A DNA stretch of 34,765 nt from Deltaproteobacteria bacterium (GTDB lineage Bacteria > Desulfobacterota > Syntrophia > Syntrophales > UBA2210): contig JAGYOR010000005.1 of NCBI GenBank assembly GCA_018399535.1, positions 1 through 34,765 of the forward strand. The letters run 5' to 3'. Shown here in pieces: positions 2,165 through 21,319 of this stretch; position 1 is the first letter of the stretch; every line of letters starts with the position of its first letter. Both the position numbers and the translations under genes were made by a program. The notes below the pieces were generated by a model that worked only from the letters and a program-made list of their open reading frames with translations, was not told where the DNA came from and ran no database searches.

Positions 2165-3643
2165 ATGCCGCCACGGGGTTCTACGGAAATATTTCTTCCT
2201 CCCTGCCGGACCAAGATTATCGGTACCGTCGGTCCTTCCTGCGGAGACGCGTCTACACTCGAAACGATGATACGACACGGCATGACGGCGGCCCGGTTGA
2301 ACTTTTCTCACGGTACTTTTGAAGACCATCGACACAACATCGCCGCTTTCCGGTCGGCGGCCGCGGCGGCGGCGAGACCTTCAACCATCCTTGCCGATCT
2401 TCCCGGCCCGAAAATCAGAATCGGGCAGCTTGCGAGTGACCCGCTTACGCTGGAAAAAGGCAATGAAATCATCCTTACGACGGATGATATGCCGGGAACG
2501 GCCTCCCGCATTTCCGTCCGCTACAAGCGGCTTCCCGAAAGCCTTTCGGAAGGCGACACGATTTACCTGAACGACGGGTTTGTGGAACTCACCGTGCTTG
2601 ACGTGCAAAAGGATTCAGTCCGCTGCATGGTCGCCTCCGGCGGCAGCCTGCTTTCCGGAAAGGGGCTCAACCTGCCGGGCCGGAAGGTCTTTCTCGACAA
2701 TCCAACCGATAAGGACCTGGAAATCATGGAATTCGCCCTGGCCGAGGGAATCGATATTTTCGGCGTCTCCTTCGTGGAAGACGCCGACGCCCTTGTCAAA
2801 GTCAGGGATTTCGCGGCGAAGCGGGGAAAGACAATCCATACTGTGGCAAAAATCGAGCGGGCCGCCGCCATCGACAACATCGATTCCATACTCGACGAGG
2901 CTGATGCGATCATGATCGCCCGCGGGGATCTGGGTATCGAAATCCCCATAGAAGACATGCCCTCGGTTCAGAAAGAGTTGATTCACAAGGCGAACGAGCG
3001 GTGTCGGCCAGTCATCACGGCCACCCAGATGCTGATGTCGATGGTTGAGCACGCGCGTCCGACGCGTGCCGAAGTTACGGACGTGGCGAACGCGATTCAG
3101 GACGGGACCGATGCGATCATGCTCTCCGAAGAAACCGCCGTGGGACGACATCCCGTTACTGCAGTCACAACCATGGCCGCCGTTGCCGCTTCCTTTGAAC
3201 GACGACACAGTGAACTGCTGTGGATATCCGCTCTCCGGGAAGAACTCAAGAACAACCTCGTCCGCAAACAGATTTCCATCGCCGACATGATATCGCTGAA
3301 CGTGGCCGAATCGGTCCTCGCACTCAACATTTCCTTCGTGCTTACGTCGACCGTGACGGGCATGACGCCACGGCGCATATCGCGCCTGAAACCGTCAAGC
3401 TGGATCATCGCCGCGTGCGATAACGAAGCGGTGATGAATTTCTGTTTCATGTCGTCCGGAGTGTATCCGCTTATCATGGACAAAAAAACGAAATCGTGGC
3501 ATGAAAACGTGGTAGAAGAATTAAAACTTCGGGGTATTATCTCGCCGGGCGACCGGGTTATTCTCACTGAAGGACAGTTCTCCGGGCCGGGCGGAGGAAC
3601 CGGACCGGGCGGAACCGATACGATGGCGATCATGACACTGTGA
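2165..3643 (+). CDS. pyk: Pyruvate kinase
   Basis: A 492-residue enzyme that converts phosphoenolpyruvate and ADP to pyruvate and ATP in the cytoplasm. Residues 15-26 (RTKIIGTVGPSC) and NFSHG at 46-50 open the A domain. The lid (B) domain spans roughly 85-180. TVAKIE carries the catalytic Lys229. The signature MIARGDLGIE is at 250-259, ATQMLMSM at 286-293 and the Thr/Glu loop LSEETAVG at 320-327. A normal C-terminal regulatory domain follows to a Gly-rich tail ending DTMAIMTL. AAGGA precedes the ATG at 2165. It stands divergent from the HpaB-like gene and 72 bases ahead of the methyltransferase gene, so it may be the first gene of that transcript. Confidence 0.97.
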   Translation: MPPRGSTEIFLPPCRTKIIGTVGPSCGDASTLETMIRHGMTAARLNFSHGTFEDHRHNIAAFRSAAAAAARPSTILADLPGPKIRIGQLASDPLTLEKGNEIILTTDDMPGTASRISVRYKRLPESLSEGDTIYLNDGFVELTVLDVQKDSVRCMVASGGSLLSGKGLNLPGRKVFLDNPTDKDLEIMEFALAEGIDIFGVSFVEDADALVKVRDFAAKRGKTIHTVAKIERAAAIDNIDSILDEADAIMIARGDLGIEIPIEDMPSVQKELIHKANERCRPVITATQMLMSMVEHARPTRAEVTDVANAIQDGTDAIMLSEETAVGRHPVTAVTTMAAVAASFERRHSELLWISALREELKNNLVRKQISIADMISLNVAESVLALNISFVLTSTVTGMTPRRISRLKPSSWIIAACDNEAVMNFCFMSSGVYPLIMDKKTKSWHENVVEELKLRGIISPGDRVILTEGQFSGPGGGTGPGGTDTMAIMTL

Positions 3644-11571: not shown

Positions 11572-12354
11572 ATGGCTTTTGAGTACGAAAAGTTAAACGT
11601 GGAGCAGGATGGCAAGGTGCTTGTCGCCGCCATAAACCATCCGCCGGCGAATGCCATGGGCCAGGGCGTTCTGCGCGACATCAGCGATCTGCTCGACAGG
11701 TGTGAGAACGATGACAATGTACGGGTTATCGTCATTACCGGTACGGGAGAAAAGCTTTTTTCCGCCGGCGCCGACATCACAGAATTCGCCGATCTCCAGA
11801 AAGGCAATGTCCCCAAGTATGACGGCAACGAAATTTATTTCAAAATCGAAAACTACCCCAAGGTTATCATCGCAGCGATTCAAGGCGGCGCCTACGGGGG
11901 AGGACTCGAGCTCGCCTGTTGCTGCCACCTGCGCGTCATGTCGGAAAGCGCCACGCTGGGGCTTCCCGAAGTAAAGCTCGGGCTTAATCCCGGATGGGGA
12001 GGCACGCAGCGGTTGCCCCGTTTCATAGGCAAAACGAAGGCCCTCGAACTTATGTTGACGGGTAACTTCATGCCGGCATCGGAGGCTCTCTCGCTGGGTT
12101 TGTTGAATAAAGTCGTACCGCAGGAAAAGGTGCTGGATGAAGCAAAGGCACTTGCCAAAAAACTGGCGGCCGGAGCCCCCCTGGCCCAGAGGGAAATCAT
12201 GAAGGCCATCAGGCTGGGACTGGAAACCAATATAAGAGAAGGTGTACTGGTTATCGAGCGCGCGGCGAGCAGGACTCTTCAGTTCTCGGAAGACTTCGCC
12301 GAAGGTTCGAAGGCATTCCTCGAAAAGAGACCGCCCGACTTCAAGGGGCGCTGA
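11572..12354 (+). CDS. Enoyl-CoA hydratase / crotonase-family protein
   Basis: A 260-residue enzyme. ATG 11572 has a strong GAAGGAGGA nine bases upstream; the frame is open further upstream but without a better start. The oxyanion-hole segments are FSAGADITEF (63-72) and GGAYGGGLELA (105-115). Both catalytic glutamates of a true hydratase are present, Glu113 and Glu133 (LPEVKLGLNPGWGGTQRLP), 20 residues apart as in rat crotonase. It should hydrate short-chain 2-enoyl-CoA to 3-hydroxyacyl-CoA in beta-oxidation or its reverse in syntrophic metabolism. It is preceded by its own promoter and palindrome, and followed by a hairpin before the deoxyhypusine synthase-like gene. Confidence 0.92.
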   Translation: MAFEYEKLNVEQDGKVLVAAINHPPANAMGQGVLRDISDLLDRCENDDNVRVIVITGTGEKLFSAGADITEFADLQKGNVPKYDGNEIYFKIENYPKVIIAAIQGGAYGGGLELACCCHLRVMSESATLGLPEVKLGLNPGWGGTQRLPRFIGKTKALELMLTGNFMPASEALSLGLLNKVVPQEKVLDEAKALAKKLAAGAPLAQREIMKAIRLGLETNIREGVLVIERAASRTLQFSEDFAEGSKAFLEKRPPDFKGR

Positions 12355-12394
12355 TATTCAGCGGGCACCGACCCGGAGTAACGGTCTAAAACAG

Positions 12395-12422
12395 GCCCCT
12401 CCCTTTTGTCACGGGGAGGGGC
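12395..12422 (+). terminator. Hairpin after the enoyl-CoA hydratase gene
   Basis: GCCCCTCCC (12395-12403) and GGGAGGGGC (12414-12422) pair perfectly over a 10-base loop. It begins 40 bases after the stop codon. No T-run follows, and the next gene starts 17 bases later. It may partly terminate, stabilise the upstream message or mark a processing site. Confidence 0.45.
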
Positions 12423-12439
12423 ATATACATGTGGAGCCC

Positions 12440-13465
12440 ATGAAAAACTTTTTTTCAGCGCAGACGCGAACCGCCGGAACAAAGTCAGACAGTGTAGCCG
12501 AGTTTATCAGGCATCATTTCAGGCATTTCAACGCAGCCGTCCTCGTCGACGCCGCCGAGGCATACCGTTCGCATATTGACAGGGGGGACGCCATGTTCAT
12601 GAGCCTGGCGGGCGCCATGAGCACTGCCGAGCTCGGTCTCTCCCTGGCCGAAATGATCCGCCGGGACAAAATTCACGCCGTAAGCTGCACGGGAGCAAAC
12701 CTCGAGGAAGACATTTTCAATCTCGTGGCTCACGATCACTATCAGCGAATACCCCATTACCGAGACCTGACGCCGGAGGAAGAAAAGGAGCTTCTGGAAC
12801 AGCACCTGAACCGTGTCACTGATACCTGCATTCCCGAAGAGGAAGCATTCAGAAGAATTGAAAGGTTCATCATCGACCTCTGGAAAGAGTCGGATGCCTC
12901 CGGAAAATCCTGCTTCCCTCACGAGTTCATCTACCAGCTGATTGACAGTGGATTGCTTGACCAGTATCACCAGATTGATCCGAAAGACAGCTGGGTCATG
13001 GCCGCCTGCGAGAAAAAGCTTCCCATTTTCGTTCCCGGCTGGGAGGATTCGACGCTGGGCAATGTCTATGCAGCACACTGCCTCCGCGGAACCATTAAAA
13101 ATATTCACACGGTTCGCACGGGAATCGAATACATGATGCAGCTTTCCGAATGGTATCGATCGACTTCGGCGGAACGGAACATCGGCTTTTTTCAGATAGG
13201 CGGCGGCATCGCCGGGGATTTCGCCATCTGCGTGGTTCCCATGCTTCGCCAGGACATGGGCGTTCATGACGCACCCCTGTGGTCGTATTTTTGTCAGATC
13301 AGCGACTCAACAACCAGCTACGGATCCTATTCAGGCGCCGTGCCGAACGAAAAAATCACCTGGGAAAAGCTGGCTGTCGGCACACCTAGTTTTATTATTG
13401 AGTCCGACGCCACCATCGTGGCCCCTCTTGTTTTCAGGTATGTTTTGGAGGAAGAATCACCGTAG
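12440..13465 (+). CDS. Deoxyhypusine synthase-family protein
   Basis: A 341-residue protein. The start is ATG 12440 (MKNFFSAQ) with GTGGAG upstream; the in-frame extension into the preceding gene is not real. The family core is obvious: SLAGAMSTAELG (55-66), CTGANLEEDIFN (83-94), the NAD-site region FVPGWEDSTLGN (197-208), IGGGIAGDF (253-261), and DSTTSYGSYSGA (289-300). WEKL places the catalytic Lys at 310, equivalent to human Lys329 (WGK there, so the middle Gly is Glu here). True deoxyhypusine synthase modifies eIF5A, absent from bacteria. Bacterial homologues are thought to act on polyamines (homospermidine synthase-like) or unknown acceptors. It may be co-transcribed with leuB. Confidence 0.88.
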   Translation: MKNFFSAQTRTAGTKSDSVAEFIRHHFRHFNAAVLVDAAEAYRSHIDRGDAMFMSLAGAMSTAELGLSLAEMIRRDKIHAVSCTGANLEEDIFNLVAHDHYQRIPHYRDLTPEEEKELLEQHLNRVTDTCIPEEEAFRRIERFIIDLWKESDASGKSCFPHEFIYQLIDSGLLDQYHQIDPKDSWVMAACEKKLPIFVPGWEDSTLGNVYAAHCLRGTIKNIHTVRTGIEYMMQLSEWYRSTSAERNIGFFQIGGGIAGDFAICVVPMLRQDMGVHDAPLWSYFCQISDSTTSYGSYSGAVPNEKITWEKLAVGTPSFIIESDATIVAPLVFRYVLEEESP

Positions 13466-14865: not shown

Positions 14866-15372
14866 TCAGACAGCTTCTCCTTTTCGAATACGCTCGATCG
14901 TGTAGGGAACGAGACCGCCGGCTTTTATAATCTCCGCCATAAAATCAGGAACGGGGCTTGACGCAAACTGCCGTGAGTCGTCGATACGCTCAATCGAACC
15001 GGCGGCGAGATTCACCCTGACTTCGTCGCCTTCCGCGAGTTCTTTCGGCGCTTCCGGGGACTCGAGCAAGGGGAGCCCGATATTGAAGGCGTTTCGATAA
15101 AATATGCGCGCAAAGCTGCGGGCGATAATGAGCGATACGCCGGAAGCCTTGATTGCAAGCGGTGCATGCTCCCGAGAAGAACCACACCCGAAATTGCCGC
15201 CCGCAACGATGACATCACCGGGACGCACCGAAGAAGCAAACTCCGGCCGCAGATCGGCAAAGCAGTTCCGCGCCAGTTCGGACGCCTCGGAAACATTGAG
15301 AAAACGTGCGGGAATGATCAGGTCAGTATCGATATCATCACCCAGTTTCCAGATTTTACCCTGAAACATCAT
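14866..15372 (-). CDS. leuD: 3-isopropylmalate dehydratase small subunit
   Basis: A 168-residue swivel-domain subunit that pairs with LeuC to isomerise 2- to 3-isopropylmalate; it can also handle citramalate. Markers are GDDIDTDLIIPARF (12-25) and the substrate-loop signature GGNFGCGSSREHAP (58-71). The short length matches the archaeal/deltaproteobacterial type rather than the roughly 200-residue enterobacterial LeuD. The start is ATG 15372 (ATGATG) with AAAGGAA upstream. It is the last gene of the leftward leuA-leuC-leuD run, 82 bases after leuC, and ends 15 bases from the CxxC mini-gene. Confidence 0.96.
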   Translation of the reverse strand: MMFQGKIWKLGDDIDTDLIIPARFLNVSEASELARNCFADLRPEFASSVRPGDVIVAGGNFGCGSSREHAPLAIKASGVSLIIARSFARIFYRNAFNIGLPLLESPEAPKELAEGDEVRVNLAAGSIERIDDSRQFASSPVPDFMAEIIKAGGLVPYTIERIRKGEAV

Positions 15373-15454
15373 GTGGAATTTCCTTTCGCTGTTATAGATG
15401 TGTCATTACATACGCCCGACATGGCCGTTTTCACCCTCGTGCCGACTGTTTCCA

Positions 15455-16714
15455 TCAGAGTTCTCCGGGACCGCCGATTTTTCCCAATACAGCCGAAGCC
15501 GCCGCGACAAAGGGATTCGAGAGGTAAACCTCGCTTTCAGGATGTCCCATGCGCCCCACGAAATTCCTGTTGGTCGTTGCCAGGGCTCGTTCGCCGGCCG
15601 CGAGAATACCCATGTGACCTCCCAGGCAGGGACCGCAACAGGGCGGGCCGATAACGGCATTCGCGTCGAGCAGTGTTTCAACGATGCCTTCCCTGACCGC
15701 TTCACGGTAAATCTTGGGGGAACCGGGAATGATGATCAATCGAAGTCCCCGGGCCGCCCTTTTTCCCTTCAACACGGACGCGGCGTCCCGAAGGTCTTCC
15801 AGAGAACCGTTGGTGCATGACCCGATGAATACCTGGTCCAGCGTCACATCTCCACATTCCGAGAGATTCCGGACGTTCGCGGGCGAGTGGGGAAAGGCCA
15901 CCTGCGGTTCCAGGGACGCCGCGTCGATGGTAACAACCCGTTCATACCGGGCATCGGCGTCGCTCATACGATAAATTGCGCCTGTCTCGGAGCGTTCATC
16001 AACAAACGCGCGGGTGATATCGTCCGGTTCAAAAATGCCGTTCTTGCCCCCCGCTTCGATAGCCATGTTCGCCATGGTGAGCCGCTGATACATGGGCATG
16101 CGCCGAACGGTTTCTCCACCGAACTCCAGGGTCGCGTAACGCGCTCCTTCGACACCGATCATGCCGATGAGATGTAAAATAATATCCTTCCCCCCCACCA
16201 ACGGCGACGGTGTGCCCTCGATGTTGACCCGGATAGTGGGCGGTACTTTCAGCCATATTTCTCCGGTCGCCATAATGACGCCGAGGTCGGTGCTTCCCAC
16301 GCCTGTTGAAAAAGCGCCCAGCGCTCCGTAAGTACAGGTATGACTGTCGGCGCCGATGACTACCTGCCCCGGAAGAACAAGCCCCTTTTCCGGAAGAATC
16401 ACGTGCTCGATGCCCACGTCTCCTCCCTCGTAGTAATGCGTTATATCGTGGCGGCGGGCGAATTCTCTCACGAATTTCACCTGCTGGGCCGACGCTATAT
16501 CCTTGTTCGGAACGAAATGATCCGCCACGAGGGCAACGGCATCCCGGTCGAAAACAGTCTCCCGGCCTATCTCGTTGAACACCTTGATGGCGATAGGGGC
16601 CGTGATGTCGTTGGCGAGGGCCATGTCGACCTTCACCTGGATCAGGTCTCCCGGCGAAACGGTTTTCCTGGCCGCGTGTTCCGCCAGTATTTTTTCTGTA
16701 ATGGTCATTGGCAT
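15455..16714 (-). CDS. leuC: 3-isopropylmalate dehydratase large subunit
   Basis: A 419-residue aconitase-family protein that carries the [4Fe-4S] cluster. I take ATG 16714 (MPMTITEKIL) with TTGGAG eight bases upstream; the frame is open to 16765 but lacks a better start. Cluster Cys occur in FIGSCTNG and in PPCCGPCLGG, and DSHTCTYGALGAFSTGVGS is the substrate region. The length and sequence are of the shorter LeuC2/HacA type that pairs with a short LeuD, as here. It is the middle gene of the leuACD transcript, 79 bases after leuA. The gap includes a small hairpin, CCGTGC/GCACGG (16740-16767). Confidence 0.96.
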   Translation of the reverse strand: MPMTITEKILAEHAARKTVSPGDLIQVKVDMALANDITAPIAIKVFNEIGRETVFDRDAVALVADHFVPNKDIASAQQVKFVREFARRHDITHYYEGGDVGIEHVILPEKGLVLPGQVVIGADSHTCTYGALGAFSTGVGSTDLGVIMATGEIWLKVPPTIRVNIEGTPSPLVGGKDIILHLIGMIGVEGARYATLEFGGETVRRMPMYQRLTMANMAIEAGGKNGIFEPDDITRAFVDERSETGAIYRMSDADARYERVVTIDAASLEPQVAFPHSPANVRNLSECGDVTLDQVFIGSCTNGSLEDLRDAASVLKGKRAARGLRLIIIPGSPKIYREAVREGIVETLLDANAVIGPPCCGPCLGGHMGILAAGERALATTNRNFVGRMGHPESEVYLSNPFVAAASAVLGKIGGPGEL

Positions 16715-16793
16715 GAGGCAAACTCCAATTATAAAATTTCCGTGCTCTATAATACAGGACGGCACGGCGGTAAACGTTTTTTTAATTCTTTTT

Positions 16794-18380
16794 TCAGAGC
16801 GACGGCTTCTCCGTTCGTTTCGTGTCCGGGGTCCTCAGCGAGTCAAGACGGTTCAGGGCATTGATATAGGCCTTCGCCGTCGCCACCAGGACATCCGGGT
16901 CGGATCCCCGGCCGATGACGCTGTGCCCGTTGAACCCGAGCTGGACCGTGACGACGCCCTGCGCGTCCGTCCCGCCGGTTATGGCATTCACGGCGTATTT
17001 GATCAGTGAATGTTTTGTCCGGGTGATTTTTTTGATCGCAGCGAACGTCGCATCAACCGGACCGACGCCGAACTCGGCGTCCTGTTTCTCTTTCCCGTCC
17101 ACTTCCATGCGCACCGCCGCCATCGGCATTGCGGCATTGCCGGATATCACGTTCAGGTAAAGCAGCTTGTACTTGTCCGGTTTCCTGAAAATGGTATCCG
17201 AAATGAGTTCCTCCAGGTCCTCGTCAAAGATCTGTTTTTTGACATCGGCCAATTCCTTGAAGCGTTTGAAGGCCCGGCTGAGTTCATCGTCGGTCAGCAT
17301 GAACCCGATTTTTTTCAGGCGTTCCTTCACGGCGTGTCTGCCCGAATGTTTCCCCAGCACGATATTGGTATCCGTCACTCCCACGCTTTGAGGCGTCATG
17401 ATTTCGTAGGTAATTTTTTCCTTGATAAGCCCGTCCTGGTGTATGCCCGATTCGTGGGCAAACGCGTTCGCCCCCACGATGGCCTTGTTCGGTTGCACGG
17501 GAATGCCGGTTATGTCCGTGAGCAACCGCGACGTCCGGTAAATGTGTTTCGTGTCGATGTTTGTCGAGAACCCCAGAATATCCTTTCGTGTTTCCAGGGC
17601 CATGACGATTTCTTCCAGCGACGTGTTGCCGGCACGCTCGCCGATGCCGTTTACGGCGCACTCCACCTGCCGGGCGCCCTGTTTAAGTGCCGCCATGGAA
17701 TTGGCGACGGCCACGCCGAGATCATTGTGACAGTGGACGGATATCACGGCATCATTGATGTTTTTCACCTTTTCGAACAGATAGGCGATGAGATCTCCCA
17801 GTTCATCCGGCATGGCGTAGCCCACCGTGTCGGGAATATTCACCGTCGTGGCCCCCGCTTCGATGACGGACTGAACCATGTCGACCAGATAATCACGGTC
17901 ACTTCGGGTGGCATCCATGGGAGAAAATTCAATATTGTCCGTGTATTTACGTGCGTGCCGCACGGCGTCCACGGCCTCCTTCAAGACCTGCTCCCTGCTT
18001 TTCTTCAATTGATACCGGAGGTGGATATCGGATGACGAAATAAAGGTGTGAATGCGGGGATGAGCCGCCTCGGCGATGGATTCCCACGCCCTGTCGATAT
18101 CGTTGCGGTCGGCACGGGCAAGAGCCGCGATCTGGGGTTTTCGAATGCGCCTGGCTATTTCCTGGACGGCGATGAAATCACCTTCCGATGCAACGGGGAA
18201 GCCCGCCTCGATAATGTCGACCCCCAGTTTTTCAAGGTGGCGGGCCATGCGGAGCTTTTCGTCGAGATTCATGCTGAATCCCGGCGACTGCTCGCCGTCC
18301 CGCAGGGTCGTGTCGAAAATGTATACCCTGTTATCATTCCGCTTTTTTACCTTTTCCCCTTTTTGTGCCGTCTTCCTCAT
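16794..18380 (-). CDS. leuA: 2-isopropylmalate synthase
   Basis: A 528-residue enzyme that condenses acetyl-CoA with 2-oxoisovalerate, the committed step of leucine synthesis. AAAGGAGGAGGAA directly precedes the ATG. The TIM barrel starts with [15 protein letters not shown] (20-34). The metal ligands include HCHND, followed by [20 protein letters not shown] and [10 protein letters not shown]. The C-terminal leucine-sensing domain (about 400-510) is complete, so feedback inhibition is expected. It differs from the neighbouring CimA in these motifs. It is the first gene of leuACD, preceded by a terminator, leader peptide and promoter that together make an attenuator. Confidence 0.96.
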
Positions 18381-18422: not shown

Positions 18423-18458
18423 AAATAAAAAAGGCCATGGGCGTGGCGCCCATGGCCT
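18423..18458 (-). terminator. leuA attenuator terminator
   Basis: On the minus strand AGGCCATGGGCG / CGCCCATGGCCT form a perfect 12-bp stem (18447-18458 with 18432-18443) around a CCA loop, followed by TTTTTTATTT. This is a textbook intrinsic terminator. It ends about 45 bases before leuA and starts about 25 bases after the leader-peptide stop. Confidence 0.9.
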
Positions 18459-18511
18459 CTCTCATTTCTTCGTGTAAAACTTTTATTCGGTCAGAAGGGC
18501 GGGCGACACGC
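18441..18511 (-). promoter_or_regulatory. leuA antiterminator pairing
   Basis: The leader RNA segment encoded by 18511-18500 (GCGTGTCGCCCG, leader codons 29-33) can pair with 18452-18441 (TGGGCGCCACGC). That gives ten Watson-Crick pairs, one G-U and one mismatch. It uses up the 5' arm, loop and part of the 3' arm of the terminator, so the two structures exclude each other. Separately, ACCGGTAA (18593-18586) and TTACCGGT (18532-18525) make an 8-bp pause-type hairpin spanning the Leu codons. Confidence 0.7.
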
Positions 18512-18596
18512 GAACGATATGCACACCGGTAAGAGCGAGTCCAAGACCCGAAAGGCTCAACAGGTTGCCAAGAATCGTTCGTCCGTTACCGGTCAC
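18483..18596 (-). CDS. Leucine-rich leader peptide of leuA
   Basis: A 37-codon ORF with a GTG start and CAAGGAG about nine bases upstream, ending TAA. Nine of 37 residues are Leu, most within codons 9-22 (ILGNLLSLSGLGLAL), plus Leu34-Leu35. It lies between a promoter and an intrinsic terminator ahead of leuA. A ribosome held at Leu codons 9-22 leaves codons 29-33 free to form the antiterminator. One that runs to the stop masks them. This is the classical leu attenuation arrangement. A small hydrophobic membrane peptide is the alternative reading. Confidence 0.75.
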   Translation of the reverse strand: MTGNGRTILGNLLSLSGLGLALTGVHIVRVSPALLTE

Positions 18597-18627: not shown

Positions 18628-18656
18628 CTTCTACATTATGAATAAACCCGTGTCAA
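18628..18656 (-). promoter_or_regulatory. Promoter of the leuA leader
   Basis: Minus-strand -35 TTGACA (18656-18651), a 17-base spacer and -10 TAGAAG (18633-18628). Transcription would begin about 25 bases upstream of the leader-peptide start. Confidence 0.7.
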
Positions 18657-18698: not shown

Positions 18699-20288
18699 TC
18701 AATTTTTTCTTTCTTCCTTGCTCAGCTTGTACTGCAGGCTGTCAACCAGCGCCCGCCAGCTGGCCTCGATAATATTGCTCGAAACACCGATGGTGGTCCA
18801 GACATCCTCACCGTCTCCCGATTCGAGAAGCACCCTGACCTTGGCCGCGGTGCCGTCGCTGCCCTCGATAATGCGGACCTTGAAATCCACCAGGTGCATT
18901 TCATCCACCTCGGGATAAAATTTTCTCAGGGCTTTCCGCAGGGCGTTGTCAAGGGCGTTCACGGGACCGTTCCCCTCGGCGGCGGTAATTTCCTGTTCCT
19001 TTCCGACGGAAATCTTGATGGTCGCCTGTGAACTGGAAATCCTTCTGCGCTTTCTCTGGTCGATCACGTTGAATGATACCAGCTCAAAAGGTTCCCTGAA
19101 TTCCCCCAGGGTTTTTTTAATGAGCAGCGCCAGCGATCCGTCGGCAGTATCGAACTGGTATCCCTCGTCCTCCATTTTCTTGATTTCCCGGACAACCCTG
19201 CGGCTTACGTCGTCCGAATCATCAAGAGATATTCCCAGTTCCCGGGCCTTGTATTCTATGTTGCTCCTGCCGGCAAGATCGGACACGATAACGCGTCGGT
19301 GGTTCCCCACCAGTTCCGGGTCGGTATGTTCATAAGCGGTCGGGTTCTTGAGCACGGCGCTTACGTGAACACCACCTTTGTGGGCAAACGCGCTTTTGCC
19401 CGTGTAAGGACGGGCGTTCACCGGGGGAACATTCGCTACATCGCTGACGTAGAGCGACAGGGCCGTGAGATTTTCCAGCGAGGATCCGGGAACGCAACGT
19501 CCGTTCATCTTGAGATGCACGTTTCCGATAACAGTTACCAGGTCGGCATTGCCGCAACGCTCTCCATATCCGTTGACGGTCCCCTGGGCCATGCGGACTC
19601 CCGCTCTCAGGGCGGTAATAGTGTTTGCCACGGCAAGTCCGCAATCGTTGTGGGCATGAATTCCCAGGCGTTCTGCGGGAACAATCTTTTTGACCTCTGA
19701 CACGATATCGGCCAGTTCCCATGTCATGGTTCCACCGTTGGTGTCGCACAGGGCAATCCAGTCCGCGCCGTCCGACAGGGCCCGCTCAATCGTTTTTAAG
19801 GCGTATGATGGATTATGCTTGAATCCGTCGAAAAAATGCTCGGCGTCGTAAACGACTTCCTTGCCCCGGGATTTCAGGTACGAGACGGATTCTCCTATCA
19901 TGTCAAGATTTCCCTCGAGCGAAACACCGAGAATGTCCGTCGCGTGCAGATCCCAGCTCTTGCCGAAAATCGTTGTCACAGGCGTGCACGCGTCGATCAG
20001 GGCACGTATGTTGGGACACTCTTCGGGTGTCATGCCCTGTTTGCGAGTGCTTCCGAACGCCGCCAGGCGAATATTTTTAAATTTCTCCCGTTTCGCCAGT
20101 TTGAAAAACCGCAAGTCCTTTGGATTCGATCCCGGCCAGCCACCTTCGATATAATGAAAGCCGGCCTCATCAAGCTTGCGGGCGATCTTGATTTTTTCCT
20201 CTGCCGTTACGCTCACCTGCTCGCCCTGGGTCCCGTCGCGTAGTGTGGTGTCATAGATAATTACGTCTTCACCCGTGCGTTTCATCAT
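18699..20288 (-). CDS. cimA: (R)-citramalate synthase
   Basis: A 529-residue enzyme that condenses acetyl-CoA with pyruvate to citramalate, the threonine-independent entry to isoleucine. I place the start at ATG 20288 (MMKRTGEDV) because AAGGAG at 20299-20294 overlaps the in-frame GTG at 20294. Barrel motifs are [28 protein letters not shown] and [12 protein letters not shown], with [14 protein letters not shown]. The variant [12 protein letters not shown] (not GEQSPG) marks the CimA group. A C-terminal regulatory domain (about 395-520) is complete, so isoleucine feedback is expected. It is preceded by an Ile-codon leader and terminator. LeuCD and LeuB nearby supply the later steps. Confidence 0.95.
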
Positions 20289-20299
20289 TTTCACTCCTT

Positions 20300-20337
20300 A
20301 AAAAAAAACCCGCCCCCAGCAAGCCGCTGGTGGCGGG
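20300..20337 (-). terminator. cimA attenuator terminator
   Basis: On the minus strand CCCGCCACCAGC pairs with GCTGGGGGCGGG (20337-20326 with 20320-20309), 11 of 12 pairs with one mismatch and a 5-base loop, followed by a run of nine T (20308-20300). The T-run runs straight into the cimA Shine-Dalgarno AAGGAG, so termination and cimA translation signals abut. Confidence 0.92.
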
Positions 20338-20375
20338 TTTTGAAGTCCTTTTTCCGTAGACTATTCCATCACCAG
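20327..20375 (-). promoter_or_regulatory. cimA antiterminator pairing
   Basis: CTGGTGATGG (20375-20366), which spans the leader's last Trp codon and its TGA, can pair with CCGCCACCAG (20336-20327), the 5' arm of the terminator. That is eight Watson-Crick pairs, one U-G and one mismatch. Ribosomes that reach the stop codon would cover the first strand and allow termination. Ribosomes stalled at the Ile codons would leave it free. Confidence 0.7.
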
Positions 20376-20446
20376 GCCGCGCACGAATGCGTCCCCCGAA
20401 TTATGCCGCCAATAATAATGATGGTGGAAAAGTCCCTGTTTGTCAC
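20369..20446 (-). CDS. Isoleucine-codon leader peptide of cimA
   Basis: A 25-codon ORF with a GTG start behind GAGGACAGGA, ending TGA. It reads MTNRDFST then Ile-Ile-Ile-Ile-Gly-Gly-Ile-Ile (codons 9-16: ATC ATT ATT ATT GGC GGC ATA ATT), then RGTHSCAAW. Six of 25 residues are Ile, four in a row, the expected sensor of isoleucyl-tRNA level. It lies between a good promoter and an intrinsic terminator, directly ahead of the citramalate synthase gene, whose end product is isoleucine. Confidence 0.85.
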   Translation of the reverse strand: MTNRDFSTIIIIGGIIRGTHSCAAW

Positions 20447-20477
20447 GTTTTCCTGTCCTCGTAAGCTTAGGTTCTTC

Positions 20478-20506
20478 TCACTACAGCAAAAGGACACGCC
20501 TGTCAA
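20478..20506 (-). promoter_or_regulatory. Promoter of the cimA leader
   Basis: Minus-strand -35 TTGACA (20506-20501), a 17-base spacer and -10 TAGTGA (20483-20478), about 30 bases before the leader-peptide start. The layout matches that of the leuA leader promoter. Confidence 0.7.
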
Positions 20507-20551: not shown

Positions 20552-21319
20552 TCAGAGATAACTCCGTCCCCCCAGGAATCGACGCCGGTAATAGGCATTG
20601 TCAAGTGAATCAACGGAGACCTGTCGGCCCGCCCTGGGTGCGTGAATAAAACGCCCACCGCCGGCGTAAATACCGACATGCGACACCTGTCCTTTTCCCG
20701 CGGTGTCGAAGAACACGAGGTCGCCTTCCGACAGGGCTTTTGGATTGACGGGATCTCCCGCCATGAACTGGGCGCGGGAGGTACGTGGAAGGCTGAACCC
20801 GTTGAGTCGGTATACCGACATGGCAAGCCCGCTGCAATCGAAACCGTCCTTCGGGGAATTTCCTCCCCACTTGTAGGGAACGCCGAGAAAGCTCCGGGCC
20901 GTTTGTACAAGCCTCGTTCGAACATACCGGTCGCCCAGGCGGGCCCGGCTGGCCAGGGTGTACTGGTCGGGCCTGACTATATAGAACTCTTCGATAATGT
21001 TCTGTGCTTCAAGTTCTTTCGCCTTTGCAAGCGCTTCTTCACGGGTGGAAAAATCGCCGAACCGGACCTTGTACAAATCCCGTTCATAAACAAAATAATA
21101 GGCGTCCAGGTTGTATTCGTTGAGATAATCGGTCAGGCGACTCGCGTTGCCCACGTTTGAAAAAGCACCGGCCTGAATCGTGAATCCCAGAGGTGCCAGT
21201 TTCGCCGGTTGTTCTGGATATGCCTGGGGGTGGGGAGATACAGGTGGAGGCGGAGCGGTGCGAACTGTGCAGGCTGAAAGCGCCAGAAACAAGAACAGGT
21301 AAAACAGTCGCGCCTTCAA
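20552..21319 (-). CDS. SPOR-domain NlpC/P60 lipoprotein (peptidoglycan endopeptidase)
   Basis: I favour a TTG start at 21319 (255 residues), right after GAGGGAGGGAGA. It gives a clean lipoprotein signal, MKARLFYLFLFLALSAC, with lipidated Cys17. The GTG/ATG at 21352/21349 would add an acidic stretch unlike a signal peptide. A Pro-rich linker leads to a SPOR domain (about 44-115: FTIQAGAFSNVGNA, YKVRFGDFSTREEAL) that binds denuded glycan strands. The NlpC/P60 domain follows (about 130-255) with Cys162 in DGFDCSGL, His214 in SHVGIY and His226 in FIHAPR. It should cleave peptide stems of peptidoglycan in the periplasm. A single gene, located behind the cimA leader region. Confidence 0.9.
   Translation of the reverse strand: MKARLFYLFLFLALSACTVRTAPPPPVSPHPQAYPEQPAKLAPLGFTIQAGAFSNVGNASRLTDYLNEYNLDAYYFVYERDLYKVRFGDFSTREEALAKAKELEAQNIIEEFYIVRPDQYTLASRARLGDRYVRTRLVQTARSFLGVPYKWGGNSPKDGFDCSGLAMSVYRLNGFSLPRTSRAQFMAGDPVNPKALSEGDLVFFDTAGKGQVSHVGIYAGGGRFIHAPRAGRQVSVDSLDNAYYRRRFLGGRSYL

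Follow-up and report, generated by a model that had tools for sequence, protein, structure and literature searches.

A probable isoleucine-sensing transcription attenuator upstream of the citramalate synthase gene cimA in Desulfobacterota

The leaders of the ilv, leu, trp, and his type act by ribosome-mediated attenuation. The ilvGMEDA and ilvBN attenuators of Escherichia coli and other Gammaproteobacteria resemble the locus described here in their leader peptides rich in branched-chain residues, their alternative antiterminator and terminator, and their translation-coupled logic. However, the target here is cimA, the entry to the citramalate route, and not threonine deaminase; its leader is exclusively of the isoleucine kind, and no relation to those attenuators was detectable through Rfam. 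In Actinobacteria, runs of Ile, Val, and Leu codons overlap terminator hairpins before ilvB, and Leu runs precede leuA (PMC1262725), but these leaders belong to another phylum, have other structures, do not include cimA, and are partly contradicted by mutation data cited in the same paper. Because the Ile-rich ilvB leaders of Streptomyces are reported in PMC1262725 to be unresponsive to codon mutations, sequence alone is no proof of attenuation. The leu-operon T-boxes of Bacillota also respond to tRNA charging and control the same class of pathway genes; they differ in having no leader peptide and in binding tRNA directly. A survey of 2013 (PMC3766115) stated that Ile/Val attenuator motifs were absent from Rfam, and proposed Gammaproteobacteria as a possible place of origin for amino-acid attenuators.

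The window, that is, the whole stretch of 34,765 nt that was analyzed, carries cimA on its minus strand (18699 to 20294; TIGR00977, 717 bits against a cut-off of 450). The probable start is the ATG at 20288, which is likelier than the listed GTG at 20294 because the latter overlaps the ribosome-binding motif AAGGAG (20299-20294), located directly after the T run of the terminator. The leader element lies between cimA and an upstream NlpC/P60-type gene that ends at 20552, and all of its parts are read on the minus strand. The first-pass annotation had described a promoter, a leader ORF with codons 9-16 reading Ile4-Gly2-Ile2, an intrinsic terminator with nine T, and an antiterminator strand over the leader stop codon that can pair with the 5' arm of the terminator, and all four were found in the sequence. 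The promoter (TTGACA-N17-TAGTGA; 20478 to 20506) consists of TTGACA (20506-20501), a 17-nt spacer, and TAGTGA (20483-20478). The -10 element is poor, matching TATAAT at 2 of 6 positions, and the promoter was absent from the promoter-scan output for the window. Among 61 relatives, an exact TTGACA was found in the same place in 56 and the 17-nt spacer in 54, and the -10 element began with TA in 56 of 56.

The leader ORF (VTNRDFSTIIIIGGIIRGTHSCAAW; 20369 to 20446), with a GTG start, 25 codons, and a TGA stop, is Ile-rich and occupies the same place in relatives. Its control codons 9-16 (20399 to 20422) read Ile-Ile-Ile-Ile-Gly-Gly-Ile-Ile, with isoleucine at positions 9-12 and 15-16; clustered codons for the pathway end product are thus present in a translatable ORF upstream of cimA. 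All three kinds of isoleucine codon are in use, and ATA accounts for 32% of them in the leaders of the alignment A1 (61 sequences, the basis of the pairing counts) vs 15% in the cimA genes, an excess that possibly gives sharper sensitivity through the minor isoleucine tRNA. Region 2, the 5' strand of the antiterminator (CCTGGTGATGG; 20366 to 20376), was defined by pairing counts and ribosome-masked folding and overlaps the leader stop codon (20371-20369); in 61 of 61 sequences, the end of the stop codon falls -8 to +19 nt from the start of region 2. Region 3 (20327 to 20336; pair counts, 61 sequences) is common to the antiterminator and the terminator. The intrinsic terminator (20300 to 20339; sequence and pairing counts), comprising a hairpin (20339-20309) and a run of nine T (20308-20300), sits between the leader and the first structural gene, cimA. 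As a small correction to the antiterminator first described, the pairing in the window can be extended to 9 of 10 pairs, CTGGTGATGG with CCGCCACCAG (20336-20327). The single-sequence fold of the leader region gave z = -3.0.

Next, 149 genomes of the same order were searched for cimA, and the upstream regions of 91 loci were read. An Ile-rich leader with a terminator was kept in 89 of the 91 (80 by script and nine added by the RNA model), and one locus, L170, showed only a weak fragment of the element. Upstream of cimA in L166 there was no detectable leader element, the sole clear exception among the 91. In 66 more distant relatives, no convincing element was found near cimA, the best match (E 0.008) being at or past the gene end, and the element is thus not universal to cimA. 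Within the order, however, homologous leaders devoid of an Ile-rich ORF or terminator, which the first-pass annotation had named as refuting evidence, were not the pattern. When the 420 nt upstream of cimA were subjected to 3000 dinucleotide shuffles, a terminator-like hairpin arose in 50, whereas the combination of a leader (at least 5 Ile within 10 codons) with a terminator arose in none. Within the window, the pair before cimA is the sole such combination on both strands. Since the terminator lies between the end of the NlpC/P60 gene and cimA, it could be imagined as a plain terminator of that gene accompanied by a fortuitous hydrophobic short ORF, with no regulation. Such a reading is extremely improbable: the promoter, Ile run, region 2, and terminator are kept together across the order, both pairings covary, the arrangement did not recur in the shuffles, and the conserved promoter is placed downstream of the NlpC/P60 gene and upstream of the terminator.

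The two alternative pairings were evaluated in A1. In the antiterminator, 11 positions of region 2 (CCTGATAATGG or a variant of it) pair with region 3 (CCGTTATCAGG or a variant of it). Here 91.8% of the cells were paired and 47 cells were double changes, vs 21 in shuffles; none of 500 shuffles reached as high a covariation score, and slid registers used as a control were just 25-55% paired. The terminator, formed by regions 3 and 4, was 91.7% paired with 70 double changes vs 12 in shuffles, and 6 of its 11 pairs were changed on both sides. It was also proposed independently by RNAalifold. As region 3, the 5' arm of the terminator, is common to both structures, the antiterminator and the terminator are mutually exclusive. 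A hairpin between regions 1 and 2 was predicted by folding of the window transcript. The particular 1:2 register through the G-I-I-R codons was 78% paired with fewer double changes than the shuffles, and it is not claimed because it lacks covariation.

To calculate the switch, the transcript was folded only as far as the end of region 3, with region 4 not yet present and with pairing forbidden under the ribosome footprint. In the window transcript, the probability of the 2:3 pairing was 0.85-0.91 with the ribosome at codons 9-18, where Ile codons occupy the A site, and 0.015 without a ribosome; it was 0 at codons 22-26 including the stop, the zero at the stop codon being in part built into the method, since region 2 lies under the mask there. 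Over the 61 sequences, the mean was 0.65 at the Ile codons and 0.00 at the stop, and the best codon exceeded 0.5 in 55. Two relatives of the same genus had a weak calculated switch (best value 0.02 in L004 and 0.38 in L005), and approximately half of the relatives would, by the same calculation, antiterminate without any ribosome. Folding with and without masking thus yielded the switch that the first-pass annotation had predicted and, with the conserved Ile-rich leader and terminator, supported its view that the locus follows ilv/leu-type attenuation logic. In the full transcript at equilibrium, the terminator was favored with a probability of about 0.99 wherever in the leader the ribosome stood. 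Because the terminator always wins at equilibrium, antitermination must be kinetic and decided during transcription, as is also the case in known attenuators.

Taken together, the anatomy, the conservation, the covariation of both pairings, and the calculated switch are the basis for regarding the cimA leader as, very probably, a transcription attenuator of the classical ribosome-mediated type, with charged isoleucyl-tRNA as its signal and cimA as its target; from them we infer ribosome stalling, termination in vivo, and a physiological response. When isoleucyl-tRNA is plentiful, the ribosome would reach the leader stop codon and cover region 2 (20376-20366), leaving region 3 free to pair with region 4, and the resulting terminator would end transcription before cimA. 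When it is scarce, the ribosome would stall on codons 9-16 and leave region 2 free to pair with region 3 while region 4 is still untranscribed, by which the terminator would be blocked and cimA transcribed. Without translation, an upstream hairpin involving the Ile-codon region would sequester region 2, and the terminator would be expected to form. Alternatively, control may be mainly translational or exerted by transcription-translation coupling in spite of the attenuation-like anatomy, as suspected for some actinobacterial ilvB/leuA leaders; codon mutations are reported in PMC1262725 to have been without effect in a Streptomyces ilvB leader. We regard this as improbable here, because a strong intrinsic terminator with its T run and a covarying antiterminator are both conserved.

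The cimA leader was also compared with described RNA families. The Rfam families Leu_leader (RF00512), Thr_leader (RF00506), and Trp_leader (RF00513) share its mechanism class and a weak, sub-threshold likeness in overall form, but it is not a member of any of them, the scores being 17.6, 21.9, and 23.3 bits against gathering cut-offs of 50, 55, and 41, respectively. None of the Rfam leader families (Leu, Thr, Trp, His, and Phe) reached the gathering cut-off at the cimA leader of the window or in relatives, and the covariance model of the T-box (RF00230) gave no match there or in relatives. An uncharged-tRNA or metabolite riboswitch of the T-box type that overlaps a short ORF might be considered, given that genes of the leuA/cimA class are under T-box control in Bacillota (PMC12452182). 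Its probability is close to nil: no Rfam family matched at gathering score either at this place or in relatives, a low threshold yielded classical leaders and unrelated sRNAs that were all below cut-off, and alternative hairpins were seen with no large conserved aptamer.

The mechanism of the cimA attenuator is thus the textbook one, and what appears to be undescribed is its target cimA, its lineage, and its codon logic. An open-access full-text search found neither a cimA attenuator nor an Ile leader in Deltaproteobacteria/Desulfobacterota, although most subscription papers lay outside its scope and such absence is no proof. Bacteria that make isoleucine from pyruvate via citramalate would place an attenuator of the E. 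coli type at the committed step of the route, and they would do so in a phylum where the control of amino-acid genes has received little study.

The codons of the leader were then compared with operon content. Leaders with Ile only were found where cimA stands alone or where leuA has a Leu leader of its own (the window, L003-L005, L013, and L117, as well as L015, whose Leu leader is weaker). In loci where leuA comes after cimA and lacks a separate leader (L006-L012, L036, and L037), the cimA leader contains 2-8 Leu codons vs a median of 1 elsewhere (p = 3e-7, a statistic that ignores relatedness), and where cimA is followed by ilvD and ilvB (L040, L044, and L049), it contains 4-5 Val. The model also detected eight cimA loci in other families, whose downstream genes were inspected only afterwards. 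Their leaders were mixed; seven are followed by leuA, or a gene resembling it, that has no leader, and L268 showed no leuA. The comparison spans at least two or three independent groups, with shared ancestry uncorrected. These data also bear on the possibility that the leader peptide works by nascent-chain arrest or as a small protein, the signal being isoleucine or another ligand perceived in the exit tunnel and not codon starvation. A G-I-I-R-P or G-G-I-I-R motif does recur in many leaders, but residues beyond the Ile run vary freely, the reading frame at the peptide end shifts, and the proportions of Ile, Leu, and Val track operon content, so that an arrest peptide is quite improbable, marginally more so than translational control. 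Since the leader end varies in frame and in place relative to region 2 among relatives while the RNA is kept, the RNA and not the peptide end is under selection, consistent with the attenuator reading. The match between leader codons and operon content constitutes a natural experiment on the evolution of attenuator specificity.

A covariance model, R1, trained on cimA leaders only, had two strong forward-strand places in this genome, namely cimA (1.3e-11) and the ilvB1-ilvN-ilvC-ilvD operon (1.1e-7; leader ENTIIIIGVIIISSPCMEGRAMV). The second acetolactate synthase gene, ilvB2, is preceded by a Val/Leu leader (VVAVLVLVEVLVVV) and a separate terminator, and both ilvB leaders are kept in the family. 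Similar to the ilv attenuators of E. coli and other Gammaproteobacteria, this genome splits sensing over two acetolactate synthase operons, with an Ile leader at ilvB1 and a Val/Leu leader at ilvB2. On the contig C149 of this genome (L197), the Ile-rich ilvB1 leader lies at about 2875-3043 and the Val/Leu-rich ilvB2 leader at about 324-463 in the reverse complement, each with a terminator. Across 297 genomes of the phylum, 19 strong R1 loci outside the order were fetched, of which 18 precede cimA, ilvB, ilvD, or leuA. These findings make it likely that an undescribed, phylum-wide Desulfobacterota family of branched-chain amino-acid attenuators exists, in which one core (CCGTTATCAGG with CCTGATAACGG) stands before cimA, ilvB, ilvD, and leuA and the leader codons (Ile only, Ile+Leu, or Ile+Val+Leu) are rewritten with the gene content of the operon. 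If so, the sensed amino acids could be read directly off the operon. A covariance model combined with codon reading provides an annotation rule that can be applied to many uncultured genomes. The conservation of such a family in Desulfobacterota bears on the view of a gammaproteobacterial origin (PMC3766115).

As separate observations, loci L212-L233 from other families of the phylum have this terminator-antiterminator core in front of ilvD, ilvB, and leuA, with mixed Ile, Val, and Leu leaders. The cimA-leuA gap of six other Desulfobacterota (L036, L037, L038, L043, L045, and L055) contains a conserved hairpin, GCCGCRGG...CCTGCGGC, mostly followed by CNATGCTC, for which the four searched (L037, L043, L045, and L055) gave no Rfam match.

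No threonine deaminase passed the cut-off in this genome, which is 96% complete, and CimA is for this reason probably its only isoleucine entry, judging from gene content; this fits the sensing of isoleucine. In the window, leuA (16794-18380), leuC (15455-16765), and leuD (14866-15372) follow on the minus strand (together 14866 to 18380), with leuA 318 nt downstream of cimA. A second candidate attenuator, a Leu-rich leader with a terminator, was noted before leuA on the same strand (18656-18427). It comprises a candidate promoter TTGACA-N17-ATGTAG (18628 to 18656), the leader ORF VTGNGRTILGNLLSLSGLGLALTGVHIVRVSPALLTE in the cimA-leuA gap (18483 to 18596), which resembles the leaders before leuA in L003-L005, L013, and L117 and, more weakly, L015, and an intrinsic terminator (GGCCATGGGC..GCCCATGGCC; 18427 to 18457). 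Similar candidate attenuators occur in the same six loci. Finally, a protein of the deoxyhypusine synthase family (PF01916) is encoded beside leuB on the plus strand of the window (12242-13465), in a bacterium.
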